In this document: positions 23,380-30,351 of the stretch, in pieces
Numbering within the stretch: position 1 is the stretch's first letter
Layout: the number at the start of each line of letters is the position of its first letter
Assembly (NCBI RefSeq): GCF_030586465.1
Contig: NZ_JAUQYP010000001.1
Coordinates: 248,001 to 312,000 of the forward strand
DNA: 64,000 bases
Direction of reading: 5' to 3'
Source: Actinotalea lenta
GTDB taxonomy: Bacteria; Actinomycetota; Actinomycetes; Actinomycetales; Cellulomonadaceae
The notes under the pieces: generated by a model
Databases searched by the model: none
Told to the model about the DNA's origin: nothing
The model's input: the letters and a program-made list of their open reading frames with translations, nothing else
Made by a program: the position numbers and the translations under genes

Positions 23380-24615
23380 CTACGTCCGGCGTCGGGCGAC
23401 GGCGTCGATCGTCACGGCCACCAGCAGCACGACGGCGGTGACCACGTACTTGGCAGCCGCGCTGAACCCGAGCAGTCCCATGCCGTTGTCGATCGCGGCG
23501 ATGACCAGGCCGCCGAGCACGCCGTGCAGCGCCTTGCCCCGGCCGCCGAACAGGCTGGTGCCGCCGATCACGGCCCCGGCCACGGCGTAGAGCACCAGCG
23601 TCCCGCCGTCCAGGGACGTCGAGATGGAGCGCAGCCGGGAGGCGTACACGATCCCGGCGATCCCCGCGGTGAGGGAGCTGAGCACGAAGCCCGCCGTACG
23701 GATCCGGGCCAGGTTGATCCCGGCCCGTCGGGCGGCCTCGGCGTTGCCGCCGACGGCGTACACGTACAGCCCGAACCTCCGCCGGCCGAGCAGGTACGCC
23801 CACACCACCAGGACGCCGAGCACCAGCACCACGACCCAGGGCAAGCCGTACACCGGGGCGAGCATCCCGCGGTCCGCGTTGGCCAGCAGGATCAGCCCCG
23901 CACCCCCCACCAGCAGGGCCGCGATCTTGGCCAGGGTGAGCGCCCCCGGTGGCGCGACCAGGCCGCTGCCGCGCCGTCGGGCGTCACGGCGCCACACCAC
24001 GACCCCGAACACGGCGACCACCACGAGCATCAGGGCCCAGCCGAGCGGCCTCGAGAGCGTCCCGCTGGTGATCGCGTTGAGCACGGGGTCCTGGATCTGG
24101 ATCGAGCCACCGTTGCCCAGCACGAACAGCATGACGCCCTGCCAGAACAGCAGGCCACCGAGCGTGACCACGAACGACGGCAGGCCGATGCGGGTGATCA
24201 GGGTGCCGTGCAGCAGGCCGATGAGCGTCGTGGCGACGAGCGCCGCCCCGATCGCGGCCCACCACGGCCACCCGAACTGGGGTCGGGCGAGCCACGCCAG
24301 CACGACCGCGCCGATGCCGGCGACGAAGCCGACGGACAGGTCGATCTCACCGAGCAGCAGGACGAACACCTCGGCCATGCTCAGCAGGGCGAACACCGCC
24401 GCCTGCACGAGCAGGTTGACCAGGTTGCCCGCGGTGAGGAAGTGGCCGTCGAGTGCCTGGAACAGCACCGAGACCAGGATCAGACCGCCGACGACCGGCA
24501 GCACACCGGTCTCGCCGCCCTTGATCCGCCGCCACGCGAGGCCGAGGTACTCCCCCACGCTCGTCGCGGCCGGGGCACCCGCCTGGGCGGTCGCCGCGTC
24601 CTCGCGCACGCTCAT
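23380..24615 (-). CDS. Sugar ABC transporter permease (XylH/RbsC type)
   Basis: A 411-residue inner-membrane permease with ten or more helices, third gene of a sugar-import operon. It matches the branched-chain-type sugar permease family: FLTAGNLVNLLVQAAVFALL, EVFVLLLGEIDLSVGFVAG, GLLHGTLITRIGLPSFVVTL and a late GGTSLFGGRGKALHGVLGG. Length and form resemble XylH, which transports xylose, but the sugar is not proved. The start overlaps the ATPase stop (ATGA). Confidence 0.93.
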   Translation of the reverse strand: MSVREDAATAQAGAPAATSVGEYLGLAWRRIKGGETGVLPVVGGLILVSVLFQALDGHFLTAGNLVNLLVQAAVFALLSMAEVFVLLLGEIDLSVGFVAGIGAVVLAWLARPQFGWPWWAAIGAALVATTLIGLLHGTLITRIGLPSFVVTLGGLLFWQGVMLFVLGNGGSIQIQDPVLNAITSGTLSRPLGWALMLVVVAVFGVVVWRRDARRRGSGLVAPPGALTLAKIAALLVGGAGLILLANADRGMLAPVYGLPWVVVLVLGVLVVWAYLLGRRRFGLYVYAVGGNAEAARRAGINLARIRTAGFVLSSLTAGIAGIVYASRLRSISTSLDGGTLVLYAVAGAVIGGTSLFGGRGKALHGVLGGLVIAAIDNGMGLLGFSAAAKYVVTAVVLLVAVTIDAVARRRT

Positions 24616-25433
24616 CCCGGCACCTCCTGGTCGTCGTCGGGTCGTGGTTCCTCGTCACGGCGAGGCTGCTCCGAGACCTCGCGGTCGCTCTCTCCGGTGG
24701 TCATCAGGTCCACGACGATGCGCTGGTCGATCTGGTCGATCGGGCGCACGCCGACCATCCGGCCGTGCCGCATCACGGCGACGCGGTCCGCGACCTGGAA
24801 GACGTCGGTCATGTTGTGCGAGATGAGCAGCACCGCATGGCCACGCTCGACCAGCTTGCGGACCAGGTCGAGGACCATGCGGGTCTGCGCGACACCCAGG
24901 GCGGCCGTGGGCTCGTCCATGATCACGAGCTTGGACTCCCACAGGACGGCCTTGGCGATCGCGACCGACTGGCGCTGCCCGCCGGACAGCGAGGCGACCT
25001 GCTGACGAACCGAACGGACCGTGGTCACGGCGAGGTCGGACAGGGTCTCCGACGCAGCCTGCTCCATCGAGACGTCGTCGAGCTGGCCACGCCGCAGGCG
25101 TTCGCGTCCCAGGAACATGTTCTGGACGATGTCCAGGTTGTCGCAGAGCGCGAGGTCCTGGTAGACGGTCTGGATGCCCAGGGCGGCGGCGTCCCCGGGT
25201 CCGTGGAGCCGGGTCTTCTCGCCCTCCCAGAACATCTGGCCGTGATCGGGGGGATGGATCCCCGCGATGCACTTGATGAGGGTGGACTTGCCCGCCCCGT
25301 TGTCGCCGGCCAGCGCGGTGACCGCGCCGGCCGGCACGTCGAGGTCGACGTCGGCCAGGGCCTGAACCGGCCCGAACGACTTCGACACCCCACGTAGTGA
25401 CAACAGGGGCGGGGCCGAGGTCCCGCTGTCCAT
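24612..25433 (-). CDS. Sugar ABC transporter ATPase (single domain)
   Basis: A 273-residue ATPase of the sugar-import (RbsA/XylG) type with only one nucleotide-binding domain; the usual RbsA and XylG carry two. Walker A is GDNGAGKSTLIKC, the signature is LSGGQRQSVAIAKA, Walker B is LVIMDEPTAALG, and the H-loop is ISHNMTDV. IQTVYQDLALCDNLDIVQNM is the family Q-loop. Single-domain forms such as FrcA are known, so this is a subtype and not a truncation; the protein would work as a homodimer. A charged C-terminal tail of about 25 residues is extra. Confidence 0.92.
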   Translation of the reverse strand: MDSGTSAPPLLSLRGVSKSFGPVQALADVDLDVPAGAVTALAGDNGAGKSTLIKCIAGIHPPDHGQMFWEGEKTRLHGPGDAAALGIQTVYQDLALCDNLDIVQNMFLGRERLRRGQLDDVSMEQAASETLSDLAVTTVRSVRQQVASLSGGQRQSVAIAKAVLWESKLVIMDEPTAALGVAQTRMVLDLVRKLVERGHAVLLISHNMTDVFQVADRVAVMRHGRMVGVRPIDQIDQRIVVDLMTTGESDREVSEQPRRDEEPRPDDDQEVPG

Positions 25434-25436
25434 GGC

Positions 25437-26678
25437 TCAGCTGATCCCGGCCGCCGAGCAGGCGCTCGCCACGTTGCCGGAGCACAGGTCGGCAACCTTC
25501 ACCGCGCCGTCCTTGACCACGGTGTCGGCCATGTTCTTGGGCGTGACCCAGATCGGCGTCGTGTAGACGGACGAGATGTCCGCGTTGAGCGTCGTGTCCT
25601 TGGTCGTGGCGTTGACCAGGGAGCTGGGCGGCGTGACACCGGCCCGCAGGTAGATCGCCAGCGCGGCAGCGGCCTGCGCCTCGAGGTAGATCGGCTTGTA
25701 GACGGTGCCGCACTGGTAGCCGGTCAGCACGTTCTGCAGACCGGGCAGCGAGGCGTCCTGGCCGGTGGTCGGGAACGACTTGGGCTTGACGCCGTTGCCC
25801 TTGAGGATCGAGATCACAGCGTTCGCGTTGTCGTCGTTGGGTGTGATGGCCGCGTTGATGTTCGGGTGCGCGGTCAGCTGCTGCTGGAACGTGGTCGCCG
25901 CGGTCTGCGGGTCCCAGGTACCGGCGGGCTCACCCACCTTGGTGTAGGTGCCGTTGTCGAAGTACTGCTTGAGAACGCCGTTGTAGCCCTGCGCGAAGAG
26001 CTTCGCGTTGTTGTCCGTGGGATCGCCGTCCATGATCAGGACCTGCGGCTTCTGGACATTCCAGTCCTTGACGCACTGGACGAATCCCTGGCCGATGAGC
26101 GTGCCGACCTTCACATTGTCGAACGACACGTAGTAGCGGTCCTTCGGGCCGCCCGTCACCAGGCGGTCGTAGTCGATCACGGCGACGCCGGCGGCCTTGG
26201 CCTTGGACTCGATCGCCGCTCCGCTACCGGGGTCCAGCGGGTCGACGAGGAGCACCGACGCGCCCGCATTGATGTCGGCCTCGGCCTGGGTCTGCATGGT
26301 CGACGCGCTGCCGTTGGCGTTGTCGATCTTGAACTGGTCGGCCGACAGCCCGGCGGTCTCGAAGGCCTTCTTCAGGTACGGGGCGTCGTACTGCACGTAC
26401 CGCGTGGAGGTGGTGGTGTCGGGCAGGAGGACGCCGATCATCCCCTTGCCCTGCGAGGCGAGGTCCTTGAGCTGGGACATCACGGAGAAGTCCGCGGTGA
26501 ACGCGCCGGCGTCCACCTGCGGGACGCTCGCCGAGGACGACGAGGCGCCCGACGAGCCGGAGCTCGGACTCATCGACGAGCTCGAGCTCGAGCCGCTCGT
26601 CGAGGAACTGCAGCCGGCCAGCACGAGGCCCGATGCGGCCACGATCGCAAGGACCGGCAGGGTACGACGTGAAGACAT
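25437..26678 (-). CDS. Sugar ABC transporter substrate-binding lipoprotein (XylF-like)
   Basis: A periplasmic-binding-protein-like lipoprotein of 413 residues and the first gene of the operon. It has the lipobox LAGC followed by a long Ser-rich linker. The type 1 sugar-binding fold shows GMIGVLLPDTTTSTRYVQYD, DINAGASVLLVDPLDPGSG, AVIDYDRLVTGG, LIMDGDPTDNNA and KSFPTTGQDASLPGLQNVL. These match the XylF/ChvE group, so xylose or another aldose is the likely ligand. The ATG is preceded by AAGGAG at 7 to 8 bases. Downstream are the ATPase and permease genes with 3-base or overlapping spacing. Confidence 0.93.
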   Translation of the reverse strand: MSSRRTLPVLAIVAASGLVLAGCSSSTSGSSSSSSMSPSSGSSGASSSSASVPQVDAGAFTADFSVMSQLKDLASQGKGMIGVLLPDTTTSTRYVQYDAPYLKKAFETAGLSADQFKIDNANGSASTMQTQAEADINAGASVLLVDPLDPGSGAAIESKAKAAGVAVIDYDRLVTGGPKDRYYVSFDNVKVGTLIGQGFVQCVKDWNVQKPQVLIMDGDPTDNNAKLFAQGYNGVLKQYFDNGTYTKVGEPAGTWDPQTAATTFQQQLTAHPNINAAITPNDDNANAVISILKGNGVKPKSFPTTGQDASLPGLQNVLTGYQCGTVYKPIYLEAQAAAALAIYLRAGVTPPSSLVNATTKDTTLNADISSVYTTPIWVTPKNMADTVVKDGAVKVADLCSGNVASACSAAGIS

Positions 26679-26989: not shown

Positions 26990-27406
26990 CTAGCGCTCCC
27001 CCGGATCCGTCCGGTCCGGCGGGCCCCCGTCCAGCAGGGCCCGCAACCAGCCGGCGCCCCGCACGCGCGCCCCGAGCTCCTCGACCCGCCGGCGCAGCTC
27101 CCGGTCCGACGTGACCACCACCGCGCCGCCGCTCGCGCGCACCACGTCCACCACGGCGGAGTCTCCGTCCTGCTCAGCCCGCACGAGCTCGAGACCCGGC
27201 ACACCGCACGGCGCCGCGGCCTTCGCGCGCCCCTCGAGCACCACCACGATCCGACCCGCCGACAGCGACGTGTGGTCGACCCCGACGAGACCGGCCAGCA
27301 GTCGTTCGGCAGCACCCACGCGGTCCGTCCACCACCCGTCCGGGCGCGAACCCACCACGTTGGCGGCATCCACCACGAGCACGTCGGGCGGGTCCTGCGC
27401 GGTCAC
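26990..27406 (-). CDS. NYN/PIN-like domain protein
   Basis: A 138-residue protein with the fold of NYN/PIN nucleases. It has an N-terminal LVVDAANVVGSRPDGWW carrying a conserved Asp, IVVVLEGRAK, an acidic middle (DGDSAVVDVVRAS) and VVVTSDRELRRRVEELGARV near the end. Such proteins are common in actinobacteria and are predicted RNA-processing enzymes, but I know of no tested substrate for this type. It starts at GTG 27406. The gene is divergent from the GlpA-SdhB fusion, with about 100 bases between the starts. Confidence 0.82.
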   Translation of the reverse strand: MTAQDPPDVLVVDAANVVGSRPDGWWTDRVGAAERLLAGLVGVDHTSLSAGRIVVVLEGRAKAAAPCGVPGLELVRAEQDGDSAVVDVVRASGGAVVVTSDRELRRRVEELGARVRGAGWLRALLDGGPPDRTDPGER

Positions 27407-27508
27407 GGCCCGACGCTACCCCGCCCAGGGACGATCGGCCCTTGCCGTTCGGGCGCCCCCCGTGGCTACCGTGGAGATGCTGCGCACCTCATCGAGGAGG
27501 TGGGGACA

Positions 27509-29545
27509 GTGCCGACAGCCGCCACGCCTCATGCCCCGCACGTCGTCGTGGTGGGAGGTGGTGGCACCGGCGGCGCAGTGGCCCACGACCTCACCCTGCG
27601 AGGCGTCCGGGTCACGCTGCTGGAGCGAGGTGAGATCACCTCCGGCACCACCGGCCGGCACCACGGGCTCCTGCACAGCGGAGCCCGCTACGCGGTGAAG
27701 GACGCCGAGTCGGCAGTCGAGTGCATCCAGGAGAACCGGGTGCTGCGGCGCATCGCCGCCGGCTCCTTCGAGGAGAACGACGGGCTGTTCGTCGCGATCA
27801 CGCCCACCGACCTCGAGTACCTGCCTCGGTTCGTCGAGGCGTGCCTGGCCTGCGGCATCCCCGCCGAGGTGCTGACCGCGGCGCAGGCCCGCGAGCGCGA
27901 ACCGGGGCTGGGCCCCGACGTCCTGGCCGCGGTCCAGGTCCCGGACGCGACGATGGACGCGATGCGGCTGCCCTTGCGGTTCTTCGCCACCGCACAGCGC
28001 AACGGCGCGACCATCCGTCCGTGGACCACGGTGATCGGCCTGCGCCGCGACGGTGCCGCCGTCACCGGGGTGGTCGTCCGCGACGACGTCACCGGACGCG
28101 AGGCCGAGCTGTCCGCCGACCTCGTGGTCAACGCCGCTGGGCCGTGGGCCCAGCAGATCGCCGACCTCGCGGGCGTCCAGGTCCCCGTGCGCTGCTCCCC
28201 CGGTGTGCTCGTGGCGGTGCGTGGCCGGTGGTGCACCATGGTGGTCAACCGCCTGCACGACTCCGGCGACGGGGACATCGTCCTGCCGCAGCGCTCCCTG
28301 TCGGTCATCGGGACCAGCTCCTGGGTGGTCGACGACCCCGACGAGCTGCACCTGCCCGAGGACCACATCCACACCATGATCGAGCAGGGCGCCCGACTGG
28401 TCCCGGCGGTGGCCGGCGCCGAGATGCGCGCGGCGTGGTCGGCCGTCCGGCCGCTGATCGGTGACAGCGGCAGCACCACGGGCCGCGAGCTGTCCCGGAC
28501 CTTCAAGTGCTTCGACCACGCCGAGCGCGACGGCGTCGCGGGCTTCGTGACGATCTCTGGCGGCAAGGCGACCACACTGCGGGCGATGGCGGAGGCCACC
28601 GCGGACGTGGTCTGCCGGCACCTGGACGTCGACCGCGCGTGCCGCACGCGCGACGTGCCGCTGCTGCCGCACACCGCCTACCGCTCCCTCGTCGAGGGCG
28701 GGCCGGGCAGCGCCCCCCGTCGTCCGGCGCGAGCCCGCACGGCGGGTCGCCGGCCCCCGGCCGTCCGGACGACCCCGCCCGACGGGGCGGCCGGCCGCGA
28801 CACGGGCGCGACCCGCACCCTGCGGGTGTATCGCTGGAAGCCGGGGGACGCGCCCGCGCTCGTCGACTACGAGGTGCCCGTGGAGCCGCGGACCACGGTG
28901 CTGGATGCCCTGCGCACCGTGCGCCGGGCGCAGGACCCGAGCCTGACCGTGCGGCACTCGTGCTGCCACTCCTCGTGCGGCACGTGCGGGGTCCTGGTCA
29001 ACGGCGCCGAGGTGCTCGGCTGCGTGACCACGCTCGCGGACCTGCCGTCCGGCATCGTCACCGTCGAACCGATGGCCAACGCGCCCGTGCTCAGCGACCT
29101 CGTGGTCGACACGACGGCACTGTCGGAGCAGCTCGAGCGGTCGGGCCGGGCCCTGATCCGCGCGTCGGCGGACCTCGGCCCAGGCCTTCCGGCGCCCATG
29201 CAGCTCGAGGACTGCGTCGAGTGCGGCCTGTGCGTGTCCGCCTGCCCGATCGCCGGCTCGGACGCCGACTACCTGGGACCGGCCGCGCTCAACGCCGCCT
29301 GGCGAGCCGTCGCCGAACCGCGGGGCGCAGACCCGGAGGCGGTGCTGGCGTGGGTGGACGACCACGACGGCTGCTGGCGGTGCCACCTGAGCTTCGCGTG
29401 CAGCGAGGTGTGCCCGACGGGGGCCGATCCGGCCGCGGGGATCATGCACCTGCGCGGCGCCCTCACCCGCAGGCACCTGGTGCCGCACCGCACCCGGGAC
29501 GGCACCCGGACGTCCGGCACGGAGGAGAGGACGGTGGCTCGATGA
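27509..29545 (+). CDS. GlpA-type FAD dehydrogenase fused to an SdhB-type iron-sulfur protein
   Basis: A single chain of 678 residues. Residues 1-400 match GlpA, the anaerobic glycerol-3-phosphate dehydrogenase subunit: FAD site VVVVGGGGTGG (12-22), SGTTGRHHGLLHSGARY (45-61) and SADLVVNAAGPWAQQIADLA. After a linker near 405-440 comes an SdhB/FrdB-like module. Its [2Fe-2S] site uses Cys485 or 486, 490, 493 and 505. The other clusters use Cys569, 572, 575, 579 and Cys625, 631, 635, with the same C-x5-C-x3-CP spacing as SdhB. It should pass electrons from an alpha-hydroxy substrate, possibly glycerol 3-phosphate, through three clusters to the anchors encoded downstream and so to menaquinone. GTG 27509 has GAGGAGG 8 bases upstream. 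The fusion is seen; the substrate is inferred. Confidence 0.88.
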   Translation: MPTAATPHAPHVVVVGGGGTGGAVAHDLTLRGVRVTLLERGEITSGTTGRHHGLLHSGARYAVKDAESAVECIQENRVLRRIAAGSFEENDGLFVAITPTDLEYLPRFVEACLACGIPAEVLTAAQAREREPGLGPDVLAAVQVPDATMDAMRLPLRFFATAQRNGATIRPWTTVIGLRRDGAAVTGVVVRDDVTGREAELSADLVVNAAGPWAQQIADLAGVQVPVRCSPGVLVAVRGRWCTMVVNRLHDSGDGDIVLPQRSLSVIGTSSWVVDDPDELHLPEDHIHTMIEQGARLVPAVAGAEMRAAWSAVRPLIGDSGSTTGRELSRTFKCFDHAERDGVAGFVTISGGKATTLRAMAEATADVVCRHLDVDRACRTRDVPLLPHTAYRSLVEGGPGSAPRRPARARTAGRRPPAVRTTPPDGAAGRDTGATRTLRVYRWKPGDAPALVDYEVPVEPRTTVLDALRTVRRAQDPSLTVRHSCCHSSCGTCGVLVNGAEVLGCVTTLADLPSGIVTVEPMANAPVLSDLVVDTTALSEQLERSGRALIRASADLGPGLPAPMQLEDCVECGLCVSACPIAGSDADYLGPAALNAAWRAVAEPRGADPEAVLAWVDDHDGCWRCHLSFACSEVCPTGADPAAGIMHLRGALTRRHLVPHRTRDGTRTSGTEERTVAR

Positions 29546-29919
29546 GCGGCGACACCCGGGGCGTGCGCGGATGGTGGGCGCACCCCGCCGGAACACCGAC
29601 CTGGGCCTTCCTCGCCAACCGGGTGGCCGGCCTGGTCCTGGTCGCCTACCTCTATCTGCACCTGGCCGTGCTGTCCTTGCTGGTCCGCGGGCCGGAGAGC
29701 TGGGACGGCTTCCTCGCGGTGGCGAGCCACCCTGCGGTGCTCGTCGTCGACGTGGTGCTGTTCGCCGCGGTCGCCTGGCACGCGGTCAACGGCATCCGGG
29801 TCGGACTGGTGGGCACCGGGGTCGCGGTCCGCAGGCAGCGCGCGATGCTCGTGGCCGTGCTCGGCGCGAGCGTCCTCGCGGTGACCATGGCCGCCGTAGC
29901 ACTGCTGACGGAGGGCTGA
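29542..29919 (+). CDS. SdhC/FrdC-like membrane anchor
   Basis: A 125-residue membrane protein with three helices. The pattern of succinate dehydrogenase cytochrome b subunits is visible: FLANRVAGLVLVAYLYLHLA in helix 1 and AVAWHAVNGIRVGLVGTG between helices 2 and 3. The two conserved His residues (YLHL and WHAVNG) could ligate haem b. The start overlaps the stop of the dehydrogenase (ATGA). It probably binds quinone together with the next gene product. Confidence 0.85.
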   Translation: MSGDTRGVRGWWAHPAGTPTWAFLANRVAGLVLVAYLYLHLAVLSLLVRGPESWDGFLAVASHPAVLVVDVVLFAAVAWHAVNGIRVGLVGTGVAVRRQRAMLVAVLGASVLAVTMAAVALLTEG

Positions 29920-29922
29920 GCG

Positions 29923-30351
29923 ATGGCCGTCGACGTGAGACACCGCACCCCGCACGACCGCGTCCCGGCGACGCACGGCCGACGGGCCGCACTGCCGGGC
30001 CGTGGGGGCACGGGGGGCGCCTGGGGATGGCTCCTCCAGGTGGTCACCGGGGTCGCACTGCTGGTGCTCGTGGTGGTGCACCTGGTGGCGCAGCACTTCG
30101 TGGTGGACGCGCCCGCCGGGCTTCGCGACCACGCGTCCGTCGTGGCGTACCTGTCGAGCCCCGTGATCCTCGTGATCGAGGCGGCGTTCCTGCTGGCCGT
30201 CACGTGGCACGCCATGCTCGGGGTGCGCGCGATCCTGCTGGACCTCGGCCCGCGCGAGCGCGGGCGACGCCGCATCACCGTGGGCGTCAGCGCCCTCGGC
30301 GTGGCCACGCTCGGCTACGGCGCCTGGCTGCTGATCGCCCTGGCGACCTGA
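29923..30351 (+). CDS. SdhD-like membrane anchor
   Basis: A 142-residue protein with a polar N-terminus of about 35 residues and three helices. Helix 1 contains GVALLVLVVVHLVAQHFVV, and a later segment is LLAVTWHAMLGVRAILLDLG. These resemble the second cytochrome b anchor of succinate:quinone reductases, with His residues suited to haem binding. It begins 3 bases after the SdhC-like gene. Together the three genes would form a membrane dehydrogenase complex. Confidence 0.82.
   Translation: MAVDVRHRTPHDRVPATHGRRAALPGRGGTGGAWGWLLQVVTGVALLVLVVVHLVAQHFVVDAPAGLRDHASVVAYLSSPVILVIEAAFLLAVTWHAMLGVRAILLDLGPRERGRRRITVGVSALGVATLGYGAWLLIALAT

Follow-up and report, generated by a model that had tools for sequence, protein, structure and literature searches.

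A GlpA-SdhB fusion protein with two SdhC/D-like anchors in Actinotalea lenta, a probable dihaem glycerol-3-phosphate:menaquinone oxidoreductase

Introduction

The locus at positions 27509-30351 of the window (the whole 64,000-nucleotide stretch of Actinotalea lenta DNA that was analysed) raises the question of what enzyme is encoded when a GlpA-like flavin domain continues into an SdhB-type iron-sulfur protein and is followed by two genes for SdhC/D-like membrane anchors. A sequence-only reading of this DNA took the arrangement to be a hybrid, with the flavin part of one respiratory enzyme placed on the iron-sulfur and haem membrane part of succinate:quinone reductase. The domains, the cofactor ligands, the matching haem histidines and the homologues that carry the same parts as separate genes in the same order all agree with that proposal. 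Judged from sequence comparison, the three genes probably encode a membrane-bound dihaem glycerol-3-phosphate (G3P):menaquinone oxidoreductase, which would give the host a second G3P route, plausibly for low oxygen.

Results

A single reading frame joins a GlpA-type domain to an SdhB module

The first gene and its parts are as follows.

27509..29545, + strand: fused GlpA'-SdhB' subunit, 678 aa; uninterrupted ORF with GTG start at 27509 and stop at 29545
27509..28663, + strand: GlpA-type FAD/glycerol-3-phosphate domain (residues 1-385); TIGR03377, fold matches and conserved pocket residues
28664..28816, + strand: low-complexity linker (residues about 386-436); composition and low model confidence
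28817..29473, + strand: SdhB module (residues 437-655) with [2Fe-2S], [4Fe-4S] and [3Fe-4S] ligand sets; Pfam, NCBIfam and structure-sequence matches
28961..29023, + strand: [2Fe-2S] ligand region C485-x4-C490-x2-C493-x11-C505; invariant in 36/36 homologues
29213..29245, + strand: cluster-ligand region C569-x2-C572-x2-C575-x3-C579P; invariant in 37/37 homologues
29381..29413, + strand: cluster-ligand region C625-x5-C631-x3-C635P; invariant in 37/37 homologues

The claim that one frame encodes both halves stands, given the open frame, a clean Shine-Dalgarno sequence and domain matches to both GlpA and SdhB. The flavin part matches Pfam DAO over residues 11-366 (E 3e-49), and residues 11-392 match positions 1-382 of the 530 in the GlpA profile TIGR03377 (E 7e-134). 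The 447 bits of this match lie below the 552.8-bit cut-off for a full-length GlpA equivalog, and the C-terminal region of canonical GlpA (its last third) is missing from the flavin domain of the fused subunit. The SdhB module matches Pfam Fer2_3 and then Fer4_8, as well as the dhsB profile TIGR00384 over residues 440-649 with 160 bits against a cut-off of 88, and the closest solved iron-sulfur proteins to this half by sequence are E. coli FrdB and SdhB. The earlier numbering of C569, C572, C575, C579, C625, C631 and C635 was exact, and C485, C490, C493 and C505 of the [2Fe-2S] set are added here. With all 11 ligands present and dhsB above its cut-off, the module is a full three-cluster SdhB as had been claimed, and all 11 cysteines are invariant in alignments of 36-37 homologues. 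Loss of cofactor ligands had been named as a possible objection to the hybrid; domains and ligands were found intact.

The fused chain was also modelled structurally, as the sequence-only reading had suggested, and the model (mean pLDDT 79.6, pTM 0.77) has a GlpD/GlpO-like fold, with GlpD and alpha-glycerophosphate oxidase (GlpO) the best matches in a fold search. Linker residues 396-432 were modelled at pLDDT below 50, and linker length among homologues ranges from roughly 30 to 125 aa. The linker in the fusion of Actinotalea sp. M2MS4P-6 (L049:5920-8187) contains near-perfect tandem repeats of GAGPGGASTPS. Read-through of an ordinary SdhB was ruled out: the genome has one ordinary SdhB besides the fused module, and this genuine SdhB, encoded at C1:1450 kb, falls elsewhere in the tree.

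The two anchors carry four conserved histidines, the predicted haem ligands

Two further genes complete the set.

29542..29919, + strand: anchor C (SdhC-like, 125 aa); Pfam PF01127 Sdh_cyt, 1e-10; overlaps the fused ORF
29923..30351, + strand: anchor D (SdhD-like, 142 aa); Pfam PF01127 Sdh_cyt, 1e-14

The paired histidines noticed earlier in these anchors hold up well, as both proteins belong to Sdh_cyt and their four predicted axial histidines are invariant in 30/30 homologues. Each anchor has three hydrophobic segments; R27, H40 and H80 of anchor C and H53, H58, H96 and D107 of anchor D are all invariant (30/30). By alignment, the residues of the proximal quinone site of the E. coli type are only partly kept, with an equivalent of SdhC R31 present and equivalents of SdhD Y83 and SdhB W164 absent. 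Among solved structures the anchors come nearest to those of M. smegmatis Sdh2 (anchor C profile against SdhC, 5e-20; anchor D profile against SdhC, 2e-12, and SdhD, 9e-9), a dihaem, menaquinone-reducing succinate dehydrogenase (6LUM; PMC7447783). H40 (distal) and H80 (proximal) of anchor C align to His C47 and C87 of 6LUM, and H53 (distal) and H96 (proximal) of anchor D to His D65 and D107 (PMC7447783); the axial-ligand pairs H96-H80 and H53-H40 were read off by counting along profile alignments. The four axial histidines that define a two-anchor dihaem (type A) membrane domain are therefore all found. Because they are invariant and matched to those of Sdh2, a dihaem membrane domain in the GlpA'-SdhB' complex is a strong prediction. 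The proton-entry residue Glu-D86 of Sdh2 is not conserved in the anchor D alignment.

The fusion is a local form of an older, unfused family

A scan of bacterial and archaeal genomes gave at least 59 relatives. The search for the two-domain architecture across genomes, which the sequence-only reading had put first, found the fusion in five other independent genomes, so that a pattern-based locus search places it in at least 6 independent Cellulomonadaceae-type genomes including the window. The other carriers are Cellulomonas sp. SG140 (L009), an Actinomycetes MAG (L010), Cellulomonas sp. 73-145 (L011), an Actinomycetales MAG (L012) and Actinotalea sp. M2MS4P-6 (L049); the relative at L017 ends at a contig edge. 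The presence of the same stop-free fusion in these five genomes, in differing neighbourhoods, rules out an error of sequencing or assembly. The fusion was found in 3 of 19 genomes of the window's genus; a sample of 98 further genomes of the order had no copy of it, and 6 of these carry a GlpA relative of canonical length. In a plasmid collection only canonical GlpA-like proteins were seen, none of them matching at least 80% of the query. The fused gene set is thus an accessory trait and not an error.

In Chloroflexota and other Actinomycetota, each of GlpA', SdhB', anchor C and anchor D has a gene of its own, and these genes are neighbours in the same order (at least 24 loci); the distribution in Chloroflexota is drawn from the pattern-based search, and the unfused loci are mostly metagenome bins. 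The complete set of glpA-, sdhB-, sdhC- and sdhD-like genes is present in the window, with A and B fused, and in at least 29 homologous loci. The usual unfused run is glpF-dhaK-dhaL-glpK-glpA'-sdhB'-C-D-dhaM (gene families confirmed), and among the loci listed glpK is immediately upstream in all 21 unfused loci that have upstream sequence. In the flavin-domain tree the fused clade (100/100) is nested inside a clade of SdhBCD-partnered proteins (100/100), and canonical GlpA (100/100) stands apart from the latter. An iron-sulfur tree (short search) agrees on the fused clade, with ordinary SdhB falling outside; the fused clade is monophyletic (100/100; SH-aLRT 100). The simplest reading is that the fusion arose once. 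It is a late and local trait of a GlpA-SdhBCD hybrid whose family is older and also occurs unfused; only the fused form is peculiar to Cellulomonadaceae, and the unfused enzyme is found in many uncultured Chloroflexi and Actinobacteria.

One sub-clade of Chloroflexi (L035, L037-L042, L047; e.g. L037:5881-9936) has GlpA' and SdhB' with all cluster cysteines, followed by a ketopantoate-reductase-like (ApbA/PanE) gene and a PlsY acyltransferase; anchor genes were not found beside GlpA'-SdhB' in these loci.

The host has other genes for G3P oxidation

The host genome has a separate glpF-glpK-glpD operon, and for this reason we infer that the fused complex is an additional G3P oxidation route beside glpFKD. 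The usual partners of GlpA, GlpB and the CCG-type GlpC, are missing: neither scored above cut-off anywhere in the host genome, and SdhB-type Fer2_3/Fer4_8 and Sdh_cyt domains are found instead. A candidate canonical GlpABC at C2:203-216 kb (L078; G000:C2:203000-216000), on a small contig of a Cellulomonadaceae-type genome, was rejected as an Hdr/Qmo-like cluster of two large iron-sulfur flavoproteins and a membrane iron-sulfur/cytochrome protein. Elsewhere (L080; G000:C1:2421500-2430500), in a stretch partly masked as N, a second GlpD-like gene is accompanied by genes for an FGGY kinase, for an SDR dehydrogenase and for ETF-like proteins, a group that probably serves another polyol pathway.

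Most of the six fused loci have neighbouring genes of their own, while L009 and L011 share theirs. The window (23380-26678, - strand) and L012 (L012:2-2811) have in common a divergent upstream ABC transporter of the xylose/monosaccharide type, made up of a binding protein, an ATPase and a permease, which is absent from the other fused loci among the six compared. A gene for a small PIN-like protein (window 26990-27406, - strand) is divergent from the fused gene, with a homologue near the L012 fused locus.

A conserved palindrome precedes the fused gene

Alignment of the six upstream regions gave the following elements.

27427..27442, + strand: conserved palindrome AGGGACGATCGGCCCT, candidate activator site (OsdR/DevR-type)
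27467..27472, + strand: inferred -10 element TACCGT (TAnCnT in six genomes)
27495..27500, + strand: Shine-Dalgarno AGGAGG; from sequence, conserved in six genomes

No -35 element was recognisable and a scan of the fused-gene upstream region gave no sigma-70 consensus promoter; a conserved leader follows the inferred -10 in the six fused loci. The palindrome is centred at about -44.5 from the inferred transcription start, a position that fits an activator, and is kept ahead of each of the six fused genes even though most of these differ in their neighbourhood. It is 15/16 identical to the OsdR consensus AGGGCCGATCGGCCCT (PMC5069765) and is the sole exact match in the genome to the derived pattern AGGGNCNATNGNCCCT. 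These features suggest that hypoxic control by a DosR/OsdR-type regulator is possible. However, the motif is not enriched genome-wide (on each strand 6 matches, as many as in the reversed control) and nine loci of universal stress protein (Usp) genes gave no strong sites, and because of this the regulator is named here as a candidate. A perfect palindrome, a AGGGACCAAGGTCCCT-like DevR-type site, was also seen between a WhiB-like gene and a divergent gene (L113; G000:C2:276143-276158).

Discussion

Predicted reaction and electron route

In the proposed enzyme, sn-glycerol 3-phosphate would be oxidised to dihydroxyacetone phosphate at the FAD of the GlpA' domain, and electrons would leave the FAD by way of the three clusters of SdhB', covalently joined to GlpA', to reach haem bP (H80 of anchor C, H96 of anchor D) and after it haem bD (H40 of anchor C, H53 of anchor D). 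Going by the match to the M. smegmatis Sdh2 ligands, haem bD may reduce menaquinone at a distal site near the outer face. The linker would act as a tether between donor and relay, which in the ancestral state were presumably two proteins. In succinate:menaquinone reductases an uphill reaction accounts for the dihaem anchor. The transfer from G3P to menaquinone is already downhill, and a need for two haems in it counts against this best explanation, as do the partly kept quinone-site residues and the lack of a conserved Glu-D86.

A more specific version, in which a DosR/OsdR-type regulator places the enzyme under hypoxic control and two transmembrane haems connect an already exergonic donor with an outer-face quinone site, can be offered only tentatively. 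If this is true, G3P oxidation would be coupled to membrane potential by a family widespread in Chloroflexota and Actinomycetota, which the GlpA-SdhB fusion of Cellulomonadaceae has condensed to three genes.

Substrate and direction

G3P is the likely substrate, because glpK lies directly upstream in every unfused locus with upstream sequence; 2-hydroxyglutarate and lactate are far less likely. The substrate-pocket residues R54, Y55, R317, R332 and K354 of E. coli GlpD align to R60, Y61, R314, R330 and K353, and these are nearly invariant. The fused clade keeps every position at which the other GlpAs are invariant. However, none of the six fused loci has glp genes within about 6 kb and the host owns glpFKD, so that substrate drift in the fused clade is possible. 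The fused Cellulomonadaceae enzyme might then have kept its architecture and electron route and turned to another polyol phosphate or a 2-hydroxy acid in a non-glycerol pathway. The location outside any glp operon, the divergent sugar transporter in the window and L012, and a host genome with both a complete glpF-glpK-glpD operon and a GlpD-like gene beside an FGGY kinase are consistent with such a shift. It appears unlikely, given that the pocket and all GlpA-invariant positions are conserved and that the neighbours, which differ among most fused loci, indicate no specific alternative pathway.

Reverse operation, with menaquinol reducing dihydroxyacetone phosphate to G3P for lipids or wall polymers as an analogue of quinol:fumarate reductase, would suit the resemblance of the iron-sulfur module to E. 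coli FrdB, its closest solved structure, and the pairing of GlpA'-SdhB' with PlsY, a G3P user, in the sister clade (L035-L042, L047). It is nevertheless quite improbable, since the main clade sits beside glycerol kinase and the facilitator, a catabolic context, and at standard potentials the reduction would have to climb about 0.1 V. Finally, the low-complexity linker of variable length might suggest an assembly artefact or a decaying fused pseudogene, an idea that is hardly tenable when six independent genomes share the fusion with every ligand invariant and with promoter and ribosome-binding site conserved.

Comparison with known systems

The G3P:menaquinone oxidoreductase proposed here is closest in kind to an archaeal system. 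In Thermofilum-related archaea glpA is followed by sdhB, C and D counterparts, and a GlpA-SdhBCD complex predicted from synteny has been drawn for T. pendens (PMC11962113, 2025). By published gene order the two systems share glpA, the sdhB/C/D counterparts and the proposed membrane anchoring and electron transfer; the Thermofilum system is archaeal with separate genes, whereas the present one is bacterial, with A and B fused in Cellulomonadaceae. Literature searches, covering papers outside subscription, found no paper on a bacterial GlpA-SdhBCD. Because the combination was already predicted in Thermofilum (PMC11962113), the bacterial, fused GlpA-SdhBCD is a new form of a known kind. Canonical bacterial glpA has been said always to co-occur with glpB and glpC (PMC11962113), a claim that needs amending. 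In bacteria too, not in archaea alone, one respiratory dehydrogenase has had its catalytic half moved onto the iron-sulfur/dihaem module of another, and the GlpA-SdhB pairing became covalent later. The three-gene form in cultivable hosts (Cellulomonas, Actinotalea) opens access to a mostly uncultured enzyme family, and provides a test of why a donor more reducing than menaquinone uses a dihaem anchor.

Other G3P dehydrogenases share the catalytic part. Canonical GlpABC (TIGR03377/03378/03379) has the same GlpA catalytic half, but here the GlpA C-terminal third and GlpB are absent and GlpC is replaced by SdhB and two SdhC/D-like anchors. The GlpA-CoxG enzyme of S. acidocaldarius, for which quinone reduction was shown (PMC11962113), likewise pairs a shortened GlpA with a replacement membrane partner, though CoxG has no iron-sulfur clusters or haems. 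Aerobic GlpD/GlpO share the fold and the substrate-pocket residues, but are single-subunit peripheral enzymes that lack clusters and anchors, and the host's own GlpD is only about 30% identical to the fused subunit.

On the membrane side, M. smegmatis Sdh2 (6LUM, PMC7447783) has the same SdhB cluster ligands, two three-helix anchors and four axial haem histidines, whereas the flavoprotein here is of the GlpA type instead of SdhA and is fused to SdhB, and Glu-D86 is not conserved. Complex II (SQR/QFR) is characterised by an SdhA/FrdA flavoprotein, and the flavin domain of the fused subunit is DAO/GlpA. From its predicted parts, the GlpA'-SdhB' complex would work like complex II plus GlpA, but it belongs neither to canonical GlpABC nor to complex II.
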